This document shows positions 45,718 through 51,850 of a DNA stretch of 64,000 nucleotides, one piece after another (within the stretch, counting starts at the first letter, position 1; each line of letters opens with the position of its first letter). The stretch covers positions 1-64,000 of the forward strand of contig JAJDAG010000182.1 of assembly GCA_029262005.1 (NCBI GenBank). The letters are read 5' to 3'. Position numbers and translations under genes: made by a program. Under the pieces are notes generated by a model. It did not search any database, was not told where the DNA came from, and saw only the letters and a list, made by a program, of their open reading frames with translations. The stretch is from Candidatus Zhuqueibacterota bacterium. Lineage in GTDB: Bacteria; Zhuqueibacterota; Zhuqueibacteria; Oceanimicrobiales; Oceanimicrobiaceae.

Positions 45718-45827
45718 GGAACAAACTCCTTTTTACATTTTCTTTAAGCCTTGACAATATCCACAAAATACGGGTTGCCCCATTGGGTTGTTAATTGATG
45801 CGGGCAGCCTTAAGCTTAGTGTGCGGA

Positions 45828-46193
45828 ATGGAATATTCTTCAATAAATCTGATAGACAAGTTTTCAATGTTCTCGGAACATTGGTCTCCGAAAGTCATCG
45901 CCGAAATGAATCACTACCAATTCAAGCTGGTAAAGGTCCAGGGTGATTTTGTATGGCATCGGCATAATGAAACAGATGAAGTGTTCATTGTGGTGCTGGG
46001 AGAAGTGACAATCGAGTTTCGCGATGGGCATGTGAAGCTGTCTGAGGGTGAACTGTTCGTCATTCCTAAAGGAAAAGAGCACAAACCCTATTCAACGGAC
46101 GAGTGTTGTATTCTACTGGTTGAACCGAAAGGTGTGGTTAATACGGGCGATTCTATTAATGGGTTAACTGCCAAAAATGATGTCTGGGTTTAG
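45828..46193 (+). CDS. Cupin domain-containing protein
   Basis: 121 aa from the ATG at 45828; the open frame reaches back to 45795, but the family begins near MEYSSINLIDKFSMF. One cupin barrel is visible: metal-type WHRHNETDE (two His and a Glu) and the second motif PKGKEHKPYS with a His. Small single-cupin proteins bind metals and act on varied small molecules; no substrate is suggested. It stands between glyQS and a convergent phosphoesterase gene. Confidence 0.85.
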   Translation: MEYSSINLIDKFSMFSEHWSPKVIAEMNHYQFKLVKVQGDFVWHRHNETDEVFIVVLGEVTIEFRDGHVKLSEGELFVIPKGKEHKPYSTDECCILLVEPKGVVNTGDSINGLTAKNDVWV

Positions 46194-46270: not shown

Positions 46271-47089
46271 TCAGTACTTCCCTCTCGCTCTTTCCTTCTC
46301 CGGTAAAATTTCAAGGCAGGTTGTCCACCAACCCGTCCGGACTGTTTCGATAAACTCCGACGGAATTTCTTCTGCTTCCATTTCTCTAGCCAACCGCTCA
46401 TGGTCATATTGTAGCGGAACGAATTCAATGTTGATGATCTCATTCGCTGAGAGAATGGCGTACCAGACGCTGGTGGTGCCGTCATTTTCCGGGCGGCCGA
46501 TTACGCCAATATTGGCAAAGAATTTGTCTTTGGCTAACTTTCGTTTCCAGTGAAGCCCTGTGTGCGTAGTTAGAACGATGTCTGCGGCATAGTCGATCAA
46601 CTGTTTTTGCAGAAAATGATCAGGCGTTGTGGACTCCCAGAGGAATTCGTTTGTTTGCCGCGGTGAACCATGGCAAAGAAGAACCCGGTGTCCGGCAAAG
46701 TCGAATCGAATTTCTTTAGGTAATTCCTTTTGCCATTGCTTAAACTTATCGCTGGTATTTGCCAGTGTGTAATTGTAGCTGATTTGTGCGAAATGATTGT
46801 CACGCGGATCGGTGTAACCACACTGGCAATCCGCAAGGTTGTTGCCGATGGAATTGTCGTAGTTGCCTTGCACTACAGCGATGTTGTTGTTGAGAAGAAG
46901 CGGAAACACCTTATCCGGCGTGGGTCCAAAAGCGCCCAGGTCCCCGAGACAAAACAACTGCTGAATGCCTCTGCTGTGCGCGTCTGCAATTAAAGCCTCA
47001 AGCGCGAGATAGTTATTGTACACGCCACCAAAGACGGCTACTTTATTGCTGGTTATTGTTTGGGTCATTACTGAAATTTGGTTTGTCAT
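46271..47089 (-). CDS. Calcineurin-like phosphoesterase-fold protein with altered metal site
   Basis: 272 aa; an internal ATG at 47068 is an alternative start. The fold is recognisable from CLGDLGAFGPTPDKVF, VVQGNYDN, LLCHGSPR and TTHTGLH. However, the first motif SDIHGN appears as GGVYNN, so the usual Asp and His ligands are Gly22 and Tyr24; GNHD is GNYD. The second-half His residues are kept. It may bind one metal, a different cofactor, or have lost phosphatase activity. It is the last gene downstream of arsM on the same strand, 85 bp away, with a long hairpin over its ribosome site. Confidence 0.8.
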   Translation of the reverse strand: MTNQISVMTQTITSNKVAVFGGVYNNYLALEALIADAHSRGIQQLFCLGDLGAFGPTPDKVFPLLLNNNIAVVQGNYDNSIGNNLADCQCGYTDPRDNHFAQISYNYTLANTSDKFKQWQKELPKEIRFDFAGHRVLLCHGSPRQTNEFLWESTTPDHFLQKQLIDYAADIVLTTHTGLHWKRKLAKDKFFANIGVIGRPENDGTTSVWYAILSANEIINIEFVPLQYDHERLAREMEAEEIPSEFIETVRTGWWTTCLEILPEKERARGKY

Positions 47090-47092
47090 TCG

Positions 47093-47133
47093 TTTGCCCT
47101 TCCCGATCTTTTTTCGAGTTCGGGAAGGGCAAA
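47093..47133 (-). promoter_or_regulatory. 14-bp perfect hairpin covering the phosphoesterase ribosome site
   Basis: TTTGCCCTTCCCGA (47093-47106) and TCGGGAAGGGCAAA (47120-47133) are exact reverse complements with a 13-nt loop. On the minus-strand transcript the stem contains GGGAAGGG about 8 nt before the ATG at 47089, so it would sequester the ribosome site. No T-tract follows the stem in the minus-strand direction, so a terminator is less likely. Confidence 0.65.
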
Positions 47134-47174
47134 TTTAGTTTGGTTGAGAGAGGCGTAAAGGCTGAACGAACTTT

Positions 47175-48365
47175 CTAACAGCAGTCCGGGCCACAGGCAG
47201 CGCCATCGCTTGATTTGGTCACATCGTATTCGAGCCCTTTTGTCTCCCGTGGGTGCCGTCTTGCCGATTTAGTGCATGCAAAATTTTCTGCTGCTTCATT
47301 CGGGATTTCTGCGTAAGGCGATATCGGTACAATCTGTTCTGAGTAAGGTGCTTTTTTATAAATGTTGAAGGTTTTATCACAAACAGCCATGCGTTCACCA
47401 CGATAGAGGGTGTGTCCATCGTCATCAATTACGGCTTTCCACGGCCCTTTGTAAATCACGGCTTGATTGTGCTCAAGACAGGGGCCTTCTTTGCCTTTGT
47501 AAGCGGTAATGGTTATAGAACGGAATTCGATTCCTTCAACAGTCTGCCACGGCGTGTCTTCACGCTTAAGGATTTCGACGCCATAAAAACCAAGGTCGGA
47601 AAATGCTTGCAAAAATTCATCTTCACGAATCGCACCTGAAATGCAACCGCTCCAAAGTTCCGGATTATTCTTCATGTGCTCCGGCACATCTTCATCCGAG
47701 ACAATGTCTGAAATGGCGACCCGGCCACCTTTTTTCAAGACTCGGTAAATTTCTTCGAATAGCTGTTTTTTTTCTTCATCGCCAACAAGGTTGAGAACAC
47801 AATTTGACACAACCAAATCTATGGAATTATCAGCGATGAGTGGTTTGTTTTTGCGTTGCTCCTCTATAAATTCATCGTATCGCAGCAGGTCCGACGAGTT
47901 TTTGATAGGGTTTTCTTTCAGATAAAGATCGACCAAATCCAGGTCAAGACGCAAGTCCTGGATTTTCCCGCGGCGGAACGCAACATTATGATAGCCGATT
48001 TTGTCGCCAACTTCTTGCAAATAGCTTCTCGACAAAGCGAGCATATCGTCATTCATATCAACACCGATTACACGACCTTCCTTGCCAACCATTTGCGAGA
48101 CAATGTAGCATATTTTTCCGGTCCCGCTGCCCAAATCCAGAACGGTTTCACTTTGTTGAACATAGCGTGAGGGGTCGCCACATCCGTAGTCGCGTTCGAT
48201 AATCTCTTTGGGAATTACTTGCAGATAACTTTGGTCATAGTCGACCGGGCAACACAGCGCCGCTTCCTGGATTTGCGCACCCGCTCCGTAGCGTTCGCGT
48301 ACCGCCTTTTCGACTCCCAGCTTCTCGGGAGTGAGGATAGATTTTCCGTTTGTTTCAGTCGTCAT
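47175..48365 (-). CDS. arsM: Arsenite methyltransferase ArsM, with C-terminal extension
   Basis: 396 aa from the ATG at 48365 (AAAGGAA upstream). The open frame extends to 48440 but that would overlap the radical SAM gene. The SAM site is VLDLGSGTGK (75-84). The ArsM cysteines are recognisable: CC at 38-39, Cys62 in YGCGDP, Cys189 in SNCVLNL and Cys241 in SGCISGA. In characterised ArsM the last three bind trivalent arsenic. About 100 residues beyond the core form an extra domain (YKGPWKAVIDDDGHTLYRG), and the chain ends CGPDCC, a further potential metalloid ligand. It should methylate As(III) with SAM. It lies 14 bp after the radical SAM gene in an operon. Confidence 0.9.
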   Translation of the reverse strand: MTTETNGKSILTPEKLGVEKAVRERYGAGAQIQEAALCCPVDYDQSYLQVIPKEIIERDYGCGDPSRYVQQSETVLDLGSGTGKICYIVSQMVGKEGRVIGVDMNDDMLALSRSYLQEVGDKIGYHNVAFRRGKIQDLRLDLDLVDLYLKENPIKNSSDLLRYDEFIEEQRKNKPLIADNSIDLVVSNCVLNLVGDEEKKQLFEEIYRVLKKGGRVAISDIVSDEDVPEHMKNNPELWSGCISGAIREDEFLQAFSDLGFYGVEILKREDTPWQTVEGIEFRSITITAYKGKEGPCLEHNQAVIYKGPWKAVIDDDGHTLYRGERMAVCDKTFNIYKKAPYSEQIVPISPYAEIPNEAAENFACTKSARRHPRETKGLEYDVTKSSDGAACGPDCC

Positions 48366-48379
48366 TATTATTCCTTTGT

Positions 48380-49339
48380 TTATGAATTTGATGCTGAAAA
48401 ATTGTGGCAGATGGCCCCTGAAATATAACAGGTATAGCACGCCTGATTATTGTCGAGTGGAAATGGTGAAAATGCACCTTTGAGTGTTTCAGAAATCCTG
48501 GCTTCCGGATAATCGATTAGAATGGGGCAAACGTAAACGCCTTTATCTGTGACCATTCGACTGCGTGTGCACTGCAGCAAGTTGTCATCGTAATCGCGCA
48601 TCATTTCCAGGGTGATATGTTCGTATTGTTCGTAGCCGCGACTGCGTACTTTTTCCCGTCCAATGCGCAACGGCGGTATTATCTTAATTCGCGGCCGAGT
48701 ATATTCAATTCCCTTCATAATTTCCATAAAACCGTCAAATATTTTCTCTGTTTCATGGTCCTCCCAGGTTTGGGCTACGGTGATAATCGGTAAAAATCCG
48801 TGTGTTACCAGATTTCTAAGACCATTGAGTGCTTTGTCAAAACTCCCGTTGCCACGGATTCGGTCGTTTGATTCAGCATTACAACCATCCAGGCTGACCC
48901 GTATTTCAAGTGAAAATCGCGTCTGCTCAGAAATGGCCTGTAGGCGCTTTGCTGTGCGTTCACGGATAAGAATGCCGTTGGTAAGCACCGTTGCGGGACC
49001 CATTTCAAGTGTGTCCTGCAGAATGGCAAACATATCCTGATTCATAAAAGGTTCGCCACCTGTGAAGTAGTATTCTTTAACGCCAAGCTCTTTGGATTCG
49101 TCAAGAAATGTCTTGACTGTTTCACGCGGCATAAATCCAAAATTGTGATTTTTCGGGCTGCAACTAATGAAGCAATGCGTACACCATAAGTTACAAATGG
49201 TTCCACCTACCTGAAACCAGAGTGTATCCAGGCTGTGTAGTGGCGCCCACGGAATCTCATCATCAGGCGCCTGATGGGGGGCGGCCTGTTCGTGCCTGCC
49301 GTTGTTCAAGCTGTTTTTGGCAAATTTTTCGCTGGTCAA
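48380..49339 (-). CDS. Radical SAM protein with C-terminal Cys cluster
   Basis: 319 aa from a TTG whose TTGA overlaps the flavoprotein stop. The radical SAM motif is CNLWCTHC (Cys49, 53, 56; CX3CX2C), and GGEP at 94-97 is the SAM-binding element. Five C-terminal Cys (257, 271, 301, 304, 311) suggest a SPASM-like auxiliary iron-sulfur cluster. It is not the classic ArsS sequence, so the reaction is unknown. Its place between a flavoprotein and ArsM suggests it forms or modifies an organoarsenic (C-As) product, or modifies a peptide. This is inference from context. Confidence 0.88.
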   Translation of the reverse strand: MTSEKFAKNSLNNGRHEQAAPHQAPDDEIPWAPLHSLDTLWFQVGGTICNLWCTHCFISCSPKNHNFGFMPRETVKTFLDESKELGVKEYYFTGGEPFMNQDMFAILQDTLEMGPATVLTNGILIRERTAKRLQAISEQTRFSLEIRVSLDGCNAESNDRIRGNGSFDKALNGLRNLVTHGFLPIITVAQTWEDHETEKIFDGFMEIMKGIEYTRPRIKIIPPLRIGREKVRSRGYEQYEHITLEMMRDYDDNLLQCTRSRMVTDKGVYVCPILIDYPEARISETLKGAFSPFPLDNNQACYTCYISGAICHNFSASNS

Positions 49340-50598
49340 TTTGTTACCTGTTGCTGTTGTAATGATTCTTTGTGCAAGTCCAGATCTTTATTTTTTGTGA
49401 TGAGTGTAAAAACTTCCACGATTTGTTTTAGACCCGCTCTGATGAGGAAAGTCGAGTTTCTACCATAGCTTTTGTTGCCGACGATGTAGAAATTCGGTTC
49501 AGGGTTTCTGAGTGTTTCCGGCCCCATACTTGTTTGAGCGAGGCAGTCTGCTGAGTTGTCTGTGCCAAGTAAAGCTGCTGCTAATTTCATTGGGCCGCGG
49601 CTGGCGTAGCATTCATGTACTTGAAGTTCACGGTAAAGGCTGTTGTCCGGACTGTAACCGACATTGGCAATAATCTTGTCGACTGTAACCGCCTCAGGCA
49701 CACCGGCAGTATTTATTGTAACAAGAAAGTTGTCCCTTTTTCTGGAGTATGCCACAGACTCAATAGTTGTATGCGTCAGGAACCGGATGTCTTTGTTCGT
49801 TGTTGCTGCGGAATTCGCCTGCTGAGTCAGCCGAACTCTCCCTTCAAGTTGATCGTTGTTGATGACGGGAATTGGCCTCTGTGCTTTGCCGCGAGAGACC
49901 CAAATAAGCGAGGTACTGGGTTCTTGTTGAATTAATTTTTGAAAGTCACAAACCGTGGTTGCCGCCGAGTATCCGGTTCCAATGAGAAGAGTTTTTTTGC
50001 CGGCGAAAAGGGGTCGGTCTTTGCCAACAATATCGCGCAAATGGTAATCTATTTTGTTACGCCAGGCGCTTTCCCCAAGTGCTGGAATACCGCCGTCACC
50101 AAGCGAATTGGGATTGGCGTAAACCCCTGAGGCGTCAATCACGATATCCGTTGTGTGAATTGCCTCAACCCCGTCCTGGCTACGGATTAGTAATTGGAAC
50201 GGGTAGAAAGTTCTTTTGCTATCTCCGAGCAGCTCGCCTTTAAAAATTTGTTTTCTGCCGATGTGTACAACCTCTGTATCAGGGTGAATTGTGGGAGCCA
50301 GTTCAGGTAATTGGCTGAGCGGCTCAAGGTACTTCGTTACGAACTGTTCACCTGATAAGAGTTGGCTCGGAGCAGGTTCATCCCAGGTTGGTAGGTTTCG
50401 ATGAAGTGTCAGAGCGCCAAGACCGGAGTGGTTCATTTCCCATGGCGAAAATAGTTGAACGTGGCCCCAACAACGGATATTCTCACCAACCCTGCCCTTG
50501 TCAAAAACCGTGACTCTATAACCCAGTTTGACCGCATAAAGCGCGGCTTCAAGCCCAATGGGCCCTGCACCAATAATTGTAATTCTCTTTTGTGACAT
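49336..50598 (-). CDS. FAD/NAD(P)-binding oxidoreductase (flavoprotein monooxygenase/reductase-like)
   Basis: 420 aa from the ATG at 50598 (AAGGGA upstream); the frame extends to 50628. The FAD-binding Rossmann motif GAGPIG is at residues 10-15, and a second dinucleotide motif GTGYSA lies near residue 205. The architecture resembles the lysine/ornithine N-hydroxylase and FMO-like group or thioredoxin-reductase-like enzymes, but no redox CxxC is present, which argues against a disulfide reductase. A likely role is to oxidise or reduce an intermediate of the ArsM/radical SAM pathway. It is the second gene of the operon, after the SelW-like gene. Confidence 0.82.
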   Translation of the reverse strand: MSQKRITIIGAGPIGLEAALYAVKLGYRVTVFDKGRVGENIRCWGHVQLFSPWEMNHSGLGALTLHRNLPTWDEPAPSQLLSGEQFVTKYLEPLSQLPELAPTIHPDTEVVHIGRKQIFKGELLGDSKRTFYPFQLLIRSQDGVEAIHTTDIVIDASGVYANPNSLGDGGIPALGESAWRNKIDYHLRDIVGKDRPLFAGKKTLLIGTGYSAATTVCDFQKLIQQEPSTSLIWVSRGKAQRPIPVINNDQLEGRVRLTQQANSAATTNKDIRFLTHTTIESVAYSRKRDNFLVTINTAGVPEAVTVDKIIANVGYSPDNSLYRELQVHECYASRGPMKLAAALLGTDNSADCLAQTSMGPETLRNPEPNFYIVGNKSYGRNSTFLIRAGLKQIVEVFTLITKNKDLDLHKESLQQQQVTN

Positions 50599-50622
50599 AT
50601 TTTTTCCCTTGCTGTAACCTGA

Positions 50623-50646
50623 ACACATGCACGCATATGCATGTGT
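50623..50646. promoter_or_regulatory. 24-bp palindrome upstream of the flavoprotein gene
   Basis: ACACATGCA (50623-50631) and TGCATGTGT (50638-50646) are perfect 9-bp arms with a 6-bp spacer; GCATATGC (50633-50640) is a second nested palindrome. It sits 25-48 bp before the flavoprotein ATG, where a repressor such as the neighbouring Rrf2 protein could act. Confidence 0.5.
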
Positions 50647-50783
50647 GGAAAAGACAACAAGAATCCACTGGTTATTTATTCCTATTATTTACAGGATTAT
50701 TGTGATTGTCAGTTGTGTCGGGTAGTTATCTGGTTGCTGCAGAAAGTGAACTCAACTGGTCCTGCATATGGTGATTTCTAAAC

Positions 50784-50999
50784 TTAAAATTGTGTAAATA
50801 TTTCTTCGTGATTTGGGAATCGTCCAAGCGCTTTTTTGGAAAAAATAAGGGTACCATCTTTAACTACTTCAAAAACGCCGCCTTGCCCTTCAATTAAAGT
50901 GACTTCAACATCCGCGTATTTTGATTCAATATCTGCCTTCAAACTGGAGGCTGTTGGGTAGTAGTTTCACATGACACAATATTCAATCGATACTTTCAA
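50784..50999 (-). CDS. SelW/Rdx-family selenoprotein (in-frame UGA as Sec11, CxxU)
   Basis: 71 residues including Sec, from a TTG at 50999 with GGAG upstream, to a TAA at 50784. Translation gives MKVSIEYCVM, UGA (50969-50967), NYYPTASSLKADIESKY and then VEVTLIEGQGGVFEV. This is the SelT/SelW/SelH (Rdx) thioredoxin-like pattern: CxxU redox motif after the first strand, a long helix, then a Gly-rich turn. Both sides of the UGA match the family in one frame, so read-through is needed. A bSECIS-like hairpin follows. Standard annotation would miss the gene entirely. It is upstream of the flavoprotein, radical SAM and arsM genes on the same strand (185-bp gap), and may supply a redox or metalloid-binding function. 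Confidence 0.85.
50935..50951 (-). promoter_or_regulatory. Putative bSECIS hairpin for the SelW-like gene
   Basis: On the minus strand GCCU (50951-50948) pairs with AGGC (50938-50935). After a C-A mismatch, C-G closes an AGUUU loop (50945-50941) that starts 21 nt after the UGA. The loop sequence and spacing are almost the same as in the ArsC-like gene. Confidence 0.6.
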
Positions 51000-51208
51000 T
51001 GCTCTACTCCGTTTGTTTATGGGCTTTGTGTTATTTTTTTAGGAAGATAAATATTTTCGTGGGAAAAGTAAAGCAAATTGAATAGGAGTCGAACCAAACT
51101 CCTTTTGAAGGGAGACAGGGTTTAGTTCGGCCGGAGCAAAAAGCAGAGGGATGTTGGTTGCGAGCTGCCGGATTGACCGTGAATTTCAAATACGATGAAT
51201 TATCCAGC

Positions 51209-51661
51209 TTAGTCACCCTGTTTGTTTGCGATTTGCTCTAAAATATTTTTGGTAATTTCGTTAAGAGTTACTTTTGAAAGTGCATTTTCGAGCGCCTGTT
51301 CGGCTTTTTGTAATGGCCCTGCGATGGCGGTTGAAATATTGGCGCCAATAGGGCATTCTGCATTTGGGGTTCTGTATGGGCTATGGAAAACAGTTCTTTC
51401 TTCCACGGCATTGTAAATATCGAAGAGTGTAATGTCTTCCGGGTTTTTGCCAATCTGTGTGCCTCCTGAAGCTCCGGTAATGGTCTTTACAAGTTCTGCT
51501 TTCTTTAGCAAGCCCAAAATTCTTCGAATCACAACCGGGTTGGTATTTACGCTCCAGGCAATGTTTTCTGATGAAACAGACTGTTGTGGCTTTCTGAAAT
51601 AGACGACTGCGAGACCAACTAAAATATGGATTGCGACAGCAAATTTGCTACTTGACTTCAT
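51209..51661 (-). CDS. Rrf2 family transcriptional regulator
   Basis: 150 aa from the ATG at 51661 (MKSSSKFAVAIHILVGLAV, the usual Rrf2 start); an ATG five codons upstream is possible. The winged-helix DNA-binding domain occupies residues 1-80 with the family motif GASGG (wing). Only one Cys (NAECPIG) is present, so it does not carry the three-Cys [2Fe-2S] site of IscR/NsrR and belongs nearer to the YwnA/CymR type. It lies upstream of the SelW-flavoprotein-radical SAM-arsM genes on the same strand and is the obvious candidate regulator. The 209 bp between it and the SelW-like gene holds no further gene that I can support. Confidence 0.88.
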   Translation of the reverse strand: MKSSSKFAVAIHILVGLAVVYFRKPQQSVSSENIAWSVNTNPVVIRRILGLLKKAELVKTITGASGGTQIGKNPEDITLFDIYNAVEERTVFHSPYRTPNAECPIGANISTAIAGPLQKAEQALENALSKVTLNEITKNILEQIANKQGD

Positions 51662-51850
51662 TGGCTCGTTCCTCATTTTCGTTTTTCTGAAACCAAGTTA
51701 GTTACAGTATATTTTGATTCCTAATGAAGATATTGTGGGAAATGTTGCATTGGCTTAAAGGGAGATTTTAAATAATTAGATGGCTATCATCTCCAGCGGT
51801 ATTGGTACTTGCGTTTGGATTGATATTTTTGGAAGCGGTCAGTATATTTG

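Follow-up and report, generated by a model that had tools for sequence, protein, structure and literature searches.

A candidate ArsS-independent organoarsenical operon with a radical SAM protein, an ArsM-type methyltransferase and a selenoprotein in Candidatus Zhuqueibacterota

The window, the whole stretch of DNA that was analysed, is the first 64 kb of contig JAJDAG010000182.1 from a Candidatus Zhuqueibacterota bacterium with a genome of 5.8 Mb. It contains an operon whose genes are named here Rrf2, SelW/Rdx, FAD (flavoprotein), rSAM (radical S-adenosylmethionine, SAM, protein), ArsM and MPE (metallophosphoesterase fold). An earlier note, made from the letters of this DNA, had placed these six genes on one strand as a candidate arsenic pathway, and all six are present on the minus strand. 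Among named relatives, the nearest to carry this operon is a metagenome-assembled genome of candidate division KSB1 (L025). The features are as follows (aa, amino acids; nt, nucleotides).

51209-51676, minus strand: Rrf2-family regulator, 155 aa; Pfam Rrf2 5.7e-31; weak member of the unit
50784-50999, minus strand: SelW/Rdx selenoprotein gene, 71 residues, TTG start, CVMU motif; Pfam Rdx 1.4e-20
50967-50969, minus strand: in-frame UGA within the SelW/Rdx gene, read as the selenocysteine of CVMU
50935-50951, minus strand: putative stem-loop GCCTCCAGTTTGAAGGC, 17 nt, 3' of the UGA, resembling a selenocysteine insertion sequence (SECIS); suggestive only
50625-50644, no strand: operator-like palindrome ACATGCACGCATATGCATGT, upstream of the FAD-rSAM-ArsM genes
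49336-50598, minus strand: flavoprotein (FAD), Pyr_redox type, 420 aa; PF07992 1.7e-11, PF13738 3.6e-10
48380-49339, minus strand: radical SAM protein (rSAM), 319 aa, CX3CX2C and Cys-rich C-terminus, family unassigned; PF04055 1.6e-15
47175-48365, minus strand: ArsM-type methyltransferase, 396 aa; the long form, which has a C-terminal domain and a Cys tail; NF040538 377 bits
47093-47133, no strand: hairpin between ArsM and MPE with 17-nt arms, 94% complementary, without a clear T run
46271-47089, minus strand: MPE, calcineurin fold, degenerate metal site and invariant cysteines; PF12850 2e-9

Two starts differ from the listed calls. The FAD start at 50598 is preferred over 50628 because its ribosome-binding site is better, and ArsM is taken to begin at the ATG at 48365, which is preceded by AAAGGAATAATA, since the listed GTG at 48440 is a mechanical call. 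The FAD stop and the rSAM start overlap by 4 nt (TTGA is common to both) and rSAM is separated from ArsM by 14 nt, with AAAGGAATAATAATG as the ArsM start region, so the tight spacing described for three of the genes is real. The gap between ArsM and MPE is 85 bp and holds the strong hairpin, while about 185 bp lie between SelW and the FAD start, with the operator-like site in the gap. An Rfam scan of the DNA gave no matches. Just beyond the 3' end of the MPE gene, a cupin-domain gene is encoded on the other strand (45795-46193); it shows no sign of operon membership.

The ArsM protein resembles solved arsenite methyltransferases. Its As(III)-binding cysteines C63/C64, C87, C214 and C266 are kept in 11 KSB1 ArsM sequences, and C63, C87, C214 and C266 are conserved across phyla too, which bears out the description of a methyltransferase with ArsM cysteines. 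The score against the arsinothricin ArsM model (NF040538) is under the cut-off of 500 bits, which is exceeded in none of the 82 KSB1-phylum genomes sampled. The host genome has a separate canonical cluster, arsR-arsM-GNAT-arsC (L134 6141-8337, G000:C26), that encodes ArsR, a standard ArsM, a GNAT protein and an ArsC-type low-molecular-weight phosphatase. Therefore, the operon ArsM is a second, dedicated ArsM, and simple detoxification fails to account for it. ArsM alone is able to detoxify, and Rrf2 regulators and flavoproteins are common among stress genes; however, with the canonical cluster elsewhere in the genome and with the conserved linkage and fusions described below, a plain arsenic methylation or stress operon with chance neighbours is scarcely credible. 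A reading of the host's other ArsM, outside the operon, as a selenoprotein was rejected, as the TGA in question is its stop codon.

The rSAM protein was claimed not to be a typical ArsS, and it scores 65 bits against the ArsS model TIGR04167, which has a cut-off of 300. Its best NCBIfam match is the Rv1681 model (109 bits, cut-off 380), and no curated family is above cut-off. In the alignment, CX3CX2C and six further cysteines (C60, C257, C271, C301, C304 and C311) are invariant across phyla. The family C-terminus reads ACxxCxxxGxxC and lacks the CxxCTAGxGSSCGG ending of ArsS, of which CTAGxGSSCGG is kept in 11 ArsS sequences, and ArsS forms a separate clade on the tree with 100/100 support. 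A profile comparison of rSAM with ArsS gives a probability of 98% for the same radical SAM core, and the two share the cysteine order CX3CX2C ... C(9)G(3-4)C ... CX2C ... C. ArsS is absent from the genomes of KSB1 family f1, and four genomes of family f8 hold both ArsS and rSAM. The AlphaFold model of rSAM is poor (predicted local distance difference test score 57).

Two bacterial radical SAM enzymes that form C-As bonds are known, ArsS and ArsL (PMC12159101). ArsL has 428 aa with its cluster cysteines at 194-201 (PMC8552651), whereas rSAM has 319 aa with these cysteines at C49-C56. No model named ArsL occurs in the complete match lists of two rSAM relatives (E<=1e-10), although it is unconfirmed that the library holds such a model. 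TGA codons reported within some distant rSAM matches had suggested selenocysteine; the one examined, in L167, proved to be the terminal stop. Another unassigned radical SAM family, which shares about 30% identity with rSAM and ends in GMSCSG, was seen at L045 2368-3378, L043 5619-6713 and L044 8850-9980; it is present in the host genome. In L043 and L044 it has a methyltransferase and a different radical SAM protein beside it.

The operon is conserved within the KSB1 phylum. A contig scan with rSAM alone gave just two finds, a KSB1 relative and a distant paralogue; whole-genome searches were then used. These place rSAM orthologues in 16 of the 82 genomes, only in f1 (8 genomes) and f8 (8 genomes), and the long ArsM in 14 genomes, all of them inside the 16 (Fisher p 5e-14, ignoring kinship). 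The order FAD-rSAM-ArsM-MPE is kept in every f1 genome whose contig extends far enough. The fullest f8 order is rSAM-MPE-PHO4-ArsM-AhpD-FAD, so gene order is rearranged between the two families while linkage is retained; the f8 FAD homologue is a weak match to ArsO. In one KSB1 genome (G005) FAD and rSAM are a single 735-aa frame. Since SelW with an in-frame TGA occurs in 14 of the 16 genomes holding rSAM and the f1 order is conserved, the linkage is beyond chance. Just 2 of the 8 f1 genomes have Rrf2 at the operon position, among them G003 (L029, 56% identity). Rrf2 is therefore a weak member, and its place as an essential part was rejected.

The family extends beyond KSB1. Profile searches detected rSAM in other groups (8 genomes) and in 28/396 and 37/392 genomes of two further phyla, where the weakest few are distant paralogues. 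Of the 63 loci of the rSAM family proper (the distant paralogues L043-L045, L026 and L277 were left out as other families), 53 have an adjacent MPE, 40 an adjacent FAD and 22 an ArsM no more than 7 kb away; these are lower bounds, as contigs ending early are included. One lineage has rSAM and ArsM joined in a polypeptide of 592-626 aa, directly read in 7 genomes, and the same long frame occurs in two more (G886 and G1055). The rSAM-ArsM and FAD-rSAM fusions are the strongest evidence of a shared task. In the phylum of G216, a long ArsM or fusion is present in 21 of 32 rSAM genomes (odds ratio 6, p 3e-6, ignoring kinship). On a 77-row rSAM tree, linkage to ArsM takes 9 changes, and well-supported branches require no fewer than 6 of these. 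ArsM-like domains were also seen within open frames of 850-875 aa in G1158, G1154, G1008, G824, G1134 and G949, possibly other ArsM fusions.

The gene set is thus linked in several phyla; the earlier note had named a lack of co-occurrence elsewhere as what would refute its proposal, and its idea of a coherent operon of ArsM with a radical SAM protein is borne out by gene neighbourhood. The six-gene unit stands in part: rSAM, MPE and FAD are the conserved core, with the long ArsM linked or fused repeatedly, and Rrf2 drops out as an essential part.

That MPE and FAD are steadier partners of rSAM than ArsM could mean that the rSAM-MPE-FAD module acts on a non-arsenic substrate (e.g. a nucleotide, cofactor or peptide) and that ArsM is merely a frequent neighbour. 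The f28 loci and several others without ArsM fit this explanation, as does the generic SPASM-type similarity of rSAM to peptide maturases. The rSAM-ArsM fusions and repeated ArsM linkage speak against it, together with arsenosugar-associated neighbours and an operator-like site in common with an ArsS operon (both below), and it is rather improbable.

All other open reading frames near rSAM were clustered without preselection. The recurrent neighbours are TIGR04282-type proteins (11 loci), PHO4, a Pit-type phosphate transporter (9), and TIGR04169 AhpD-like proteins (8); a family with a protein kinase as sampled member ties with PHO4 at 9 loci. NCBI names TIGR04169, TIGR04282 and TIGR04283 as arsenosugar biosynthesis proteins. 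TIGR04169 is above cut-off beside rSAM in relatives (127.7/120). Some TIGR04282 neighbours are below cut-off (72-124 vs 134) and others above (157-196), and TIGR04282 and/or TIGR04283 are above cut-off in L276, L272, L274 and L265. This linkage of arsenosugar families to rSAM is found in relatives only, with none within the window's own operon. The rSAM-ArsM fusion stands beside a TIGR04282-TIGR04283 glycosyltransferase fusion (L276 6062-7876 and 8066-9439; L275 8155-9933), which is almost a two-gene organoarsenical cluster. Two further neighbours were observed: a gamma-glutamyltranspeptidase gene near rSAM in six loci without a nearby ArsM (including L263 10392-12029), and an ABC-transporter ATPase family at L241 13767-14675 and six other loci, whose sampled member is closest to PstB of phosphate uptake.

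In 8/8 f1 genomes the FAD start is closely preceded by the palindrome AYRTGCAY-n4-RTGCAYRT, with no more than 2 mismatches. The site is directly upstream of rSAM in four f8 loci (L035, L037, L039 and L041), precedes PHO4-ArsM in L088, and occurs at 14/16 positions upstream of an AhpD-ArsS operon in the closely related f6 genomes L078 and L079. The 64-kb window has one match of at least 14/16, with a background of 3 matches per 740 kb in other phyla. The palindrome is an operator-like candidate site that seems common to the rSAM genes and the ArsS operon.

The neighbours of rSAM also bear on the group that it would transfer. A C-As bond to another group, such as the 3-amino-3-carboxypropyl group known from ArsL or a carbon skeleton not derived from SAM, would give a non-arsenosugar organoarsenical, and MPE would act on its phosphoester. 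The operon ArsM is closest to the arsinothricin model, the f1 operon is without a glycosyltransferase, and the absence of MPE and FAD from KSB1 ArsS loci means that the chemistry may differ. However, the recurrent arsenosugar-associated neighbours fit sugars better and the length and cysteine positions of ArsL are unlike those of rSAM, so this explanation, while worth keeping in view, is unlikely.

The selenoprotein claim holds, as SelW has the Rdx domain and CxxU from an in-frame UGA that is kept in orthologues. SelW adjoins the operon in six f1 genomes, lies elsewhere in f8 and is missing in two f1 genomes. The 17-nt element downstream of the UGA is nearly invariant across 8 SelW genes of 61-73% protein identity and its fold shows no excess over shuffles (z -0.6 and -0.4); a SECIS-like role is only suggestive. 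The host genome encodes a 738-aa fusion of a NifS-type cysteine desulfurase with SelD (L136 8951-11167, G000:C193), likely the selenium donor system. ARAGORN found no tRNA in the window and none beside SelD. In another KSB1 family, a SelW gene with an in-frame TGA is also found some 5-6 kb away from canonical ArsS operons (L078 15277-15477, L079 1566-1769), and SelW may serve both the rSAM and ArsS systems. With a selenoprotein gene linked and with ArsM relatives fused in selenoproteins (NCBIfam NF041537, NF041536; PMC13188914), the operon could be thought to serve another metalloid (selenium, antimony or tellurium). This is very improbable: selenium is in SelW as selenocysteine and is not what the protein acts on, the arsenic-binding cysteines of ArsM are conserved, and the neighbours are arsenate/phosphate transporters and arsenosugar families.

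The nearest solved fold to MPE is that of the SapH/Spr1479-like asymmetric Ap4A hydrolases (3qfm). Unlike these, MPE does not have the two-metal motif set (DxH, GDxxD/G, GNHD, H, GHTH). In 54/54 sequences DxH is replaced by GxY, GNHD by GNYD/E and GHTH by THTG (T175 in 53), whereas D50, N76, H140 and H176 are retained. C88 and C90 never vary, and C258 is present in every sequence reaching that position. MPE may be an arsenic binder or retain just one metal. Since MPE homologues were not found at KSB1 ArsS loci, MPE belongs to the rSAM module.

Arsenic involvement of the operon is well supported. The evidence tips, if only modestly, towards an ArsS-independent organoarsenical pathway of the arsenosugar type, in which rSAM would make the As-C bond after ArsM; the rSAM reaction, the product and the role of MPE are inferred. 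ArsM would methylate As(III), and rSAM would then add a SAM-derived group, most likely 5'-deoxyadenosyl as in ArsS, to the methylated As(III) to give an arsenosugar-type precursor. The flavoprotein and SelW would supply reducing power so that arsenic stays trivalent. MPE, with its first metal site lost and its cysteines invariant, would bind or process the arsenic-nucleoside intermediate, and in relatives the TIGR04282/TIGR04283 glycosyltransferases would decorate the product. Since TIGR04282, TIGR04283, TIGR04169 and PHO4 recur as neighbours, the product is somewhat likelier to be of the arsenosugar type than to belong to an entirely new chemical class. It is possible, though doubtful, that the rSAM family is a further natural As-C bond-former besides ArsS and ArsL with a product outside the known arsenosugars and arsinothricin, the Cys-bearing pseudo-phosphoesterase handling the arsenic intermediate.

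Several observations weigh against an arsenosugar-type pathway. The likeness of the core profile to ArsS is also common to many radical SAM families, and the window's operon has no glycosyltransferase. The KSB1 genomes G017 and G030 hold rSAM-MPE-AhpD-FAD without a long ArsM, yet carry another ArsM. In the G216 phylum, 11 of the 32 rSAM genomes are without a long ArsM, and the association is weaker when the fusion genomes are removed (12/23, odds ratio 3.4, p 0.006, ignoring kinship). Genomes of f28 carry rSAM without MPE or FAD. Since ArsM is absent in part of the loci and f28 has neither partner, some members of the rSAM family may have other tasks.

Compared with known systems, the operon is like the ArsM-ArsS arsenosugar pathway in its ArsM, in a radical SAM protein with a similar cysteine layout, in the TIGR04169, TIGR04282/4283 and PHO4 neighbours of relatives, and in the operator-like site common with one KSB1 AhpD-ArsS operon. 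It differs in the low ArsS score, the ending and the separate clade of rSAM and in the constant partners MPE and FAD. It shares the logic of ArsM with a radical SAM protein with arsinothricin arsQML (PMC8552651), but its ArsM is under the model cut-off and it has no ArsQ permease. The bisenarsan cluster (PMC12159101) is alike as a dedicated organoarsenical biosynthesis, but it forms its C-As bond without SAM enzymes while the candidate enzymes here are SAM-dependent. The open-licence literature searched held no description of the operon or of an ArsM-radical SAM fusion, and nothing under the older name of the arsenosugar transferases.

The gene set, at times fused, is present in at least three phyla and looks like an overlooked microbial route to complex organic arsenic compounds. 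As a single polypeptide, the rSAM-ArsM fusion is testable in E. coli. If the proposed pathway is true, a wider set of organisms would be expected to make complex organoarsenicals, and concrete genes would be available for arsenic compounds of unexplained bacterial origin. A degenerate phosphoesterase family would then also gain a role, as SelW might.

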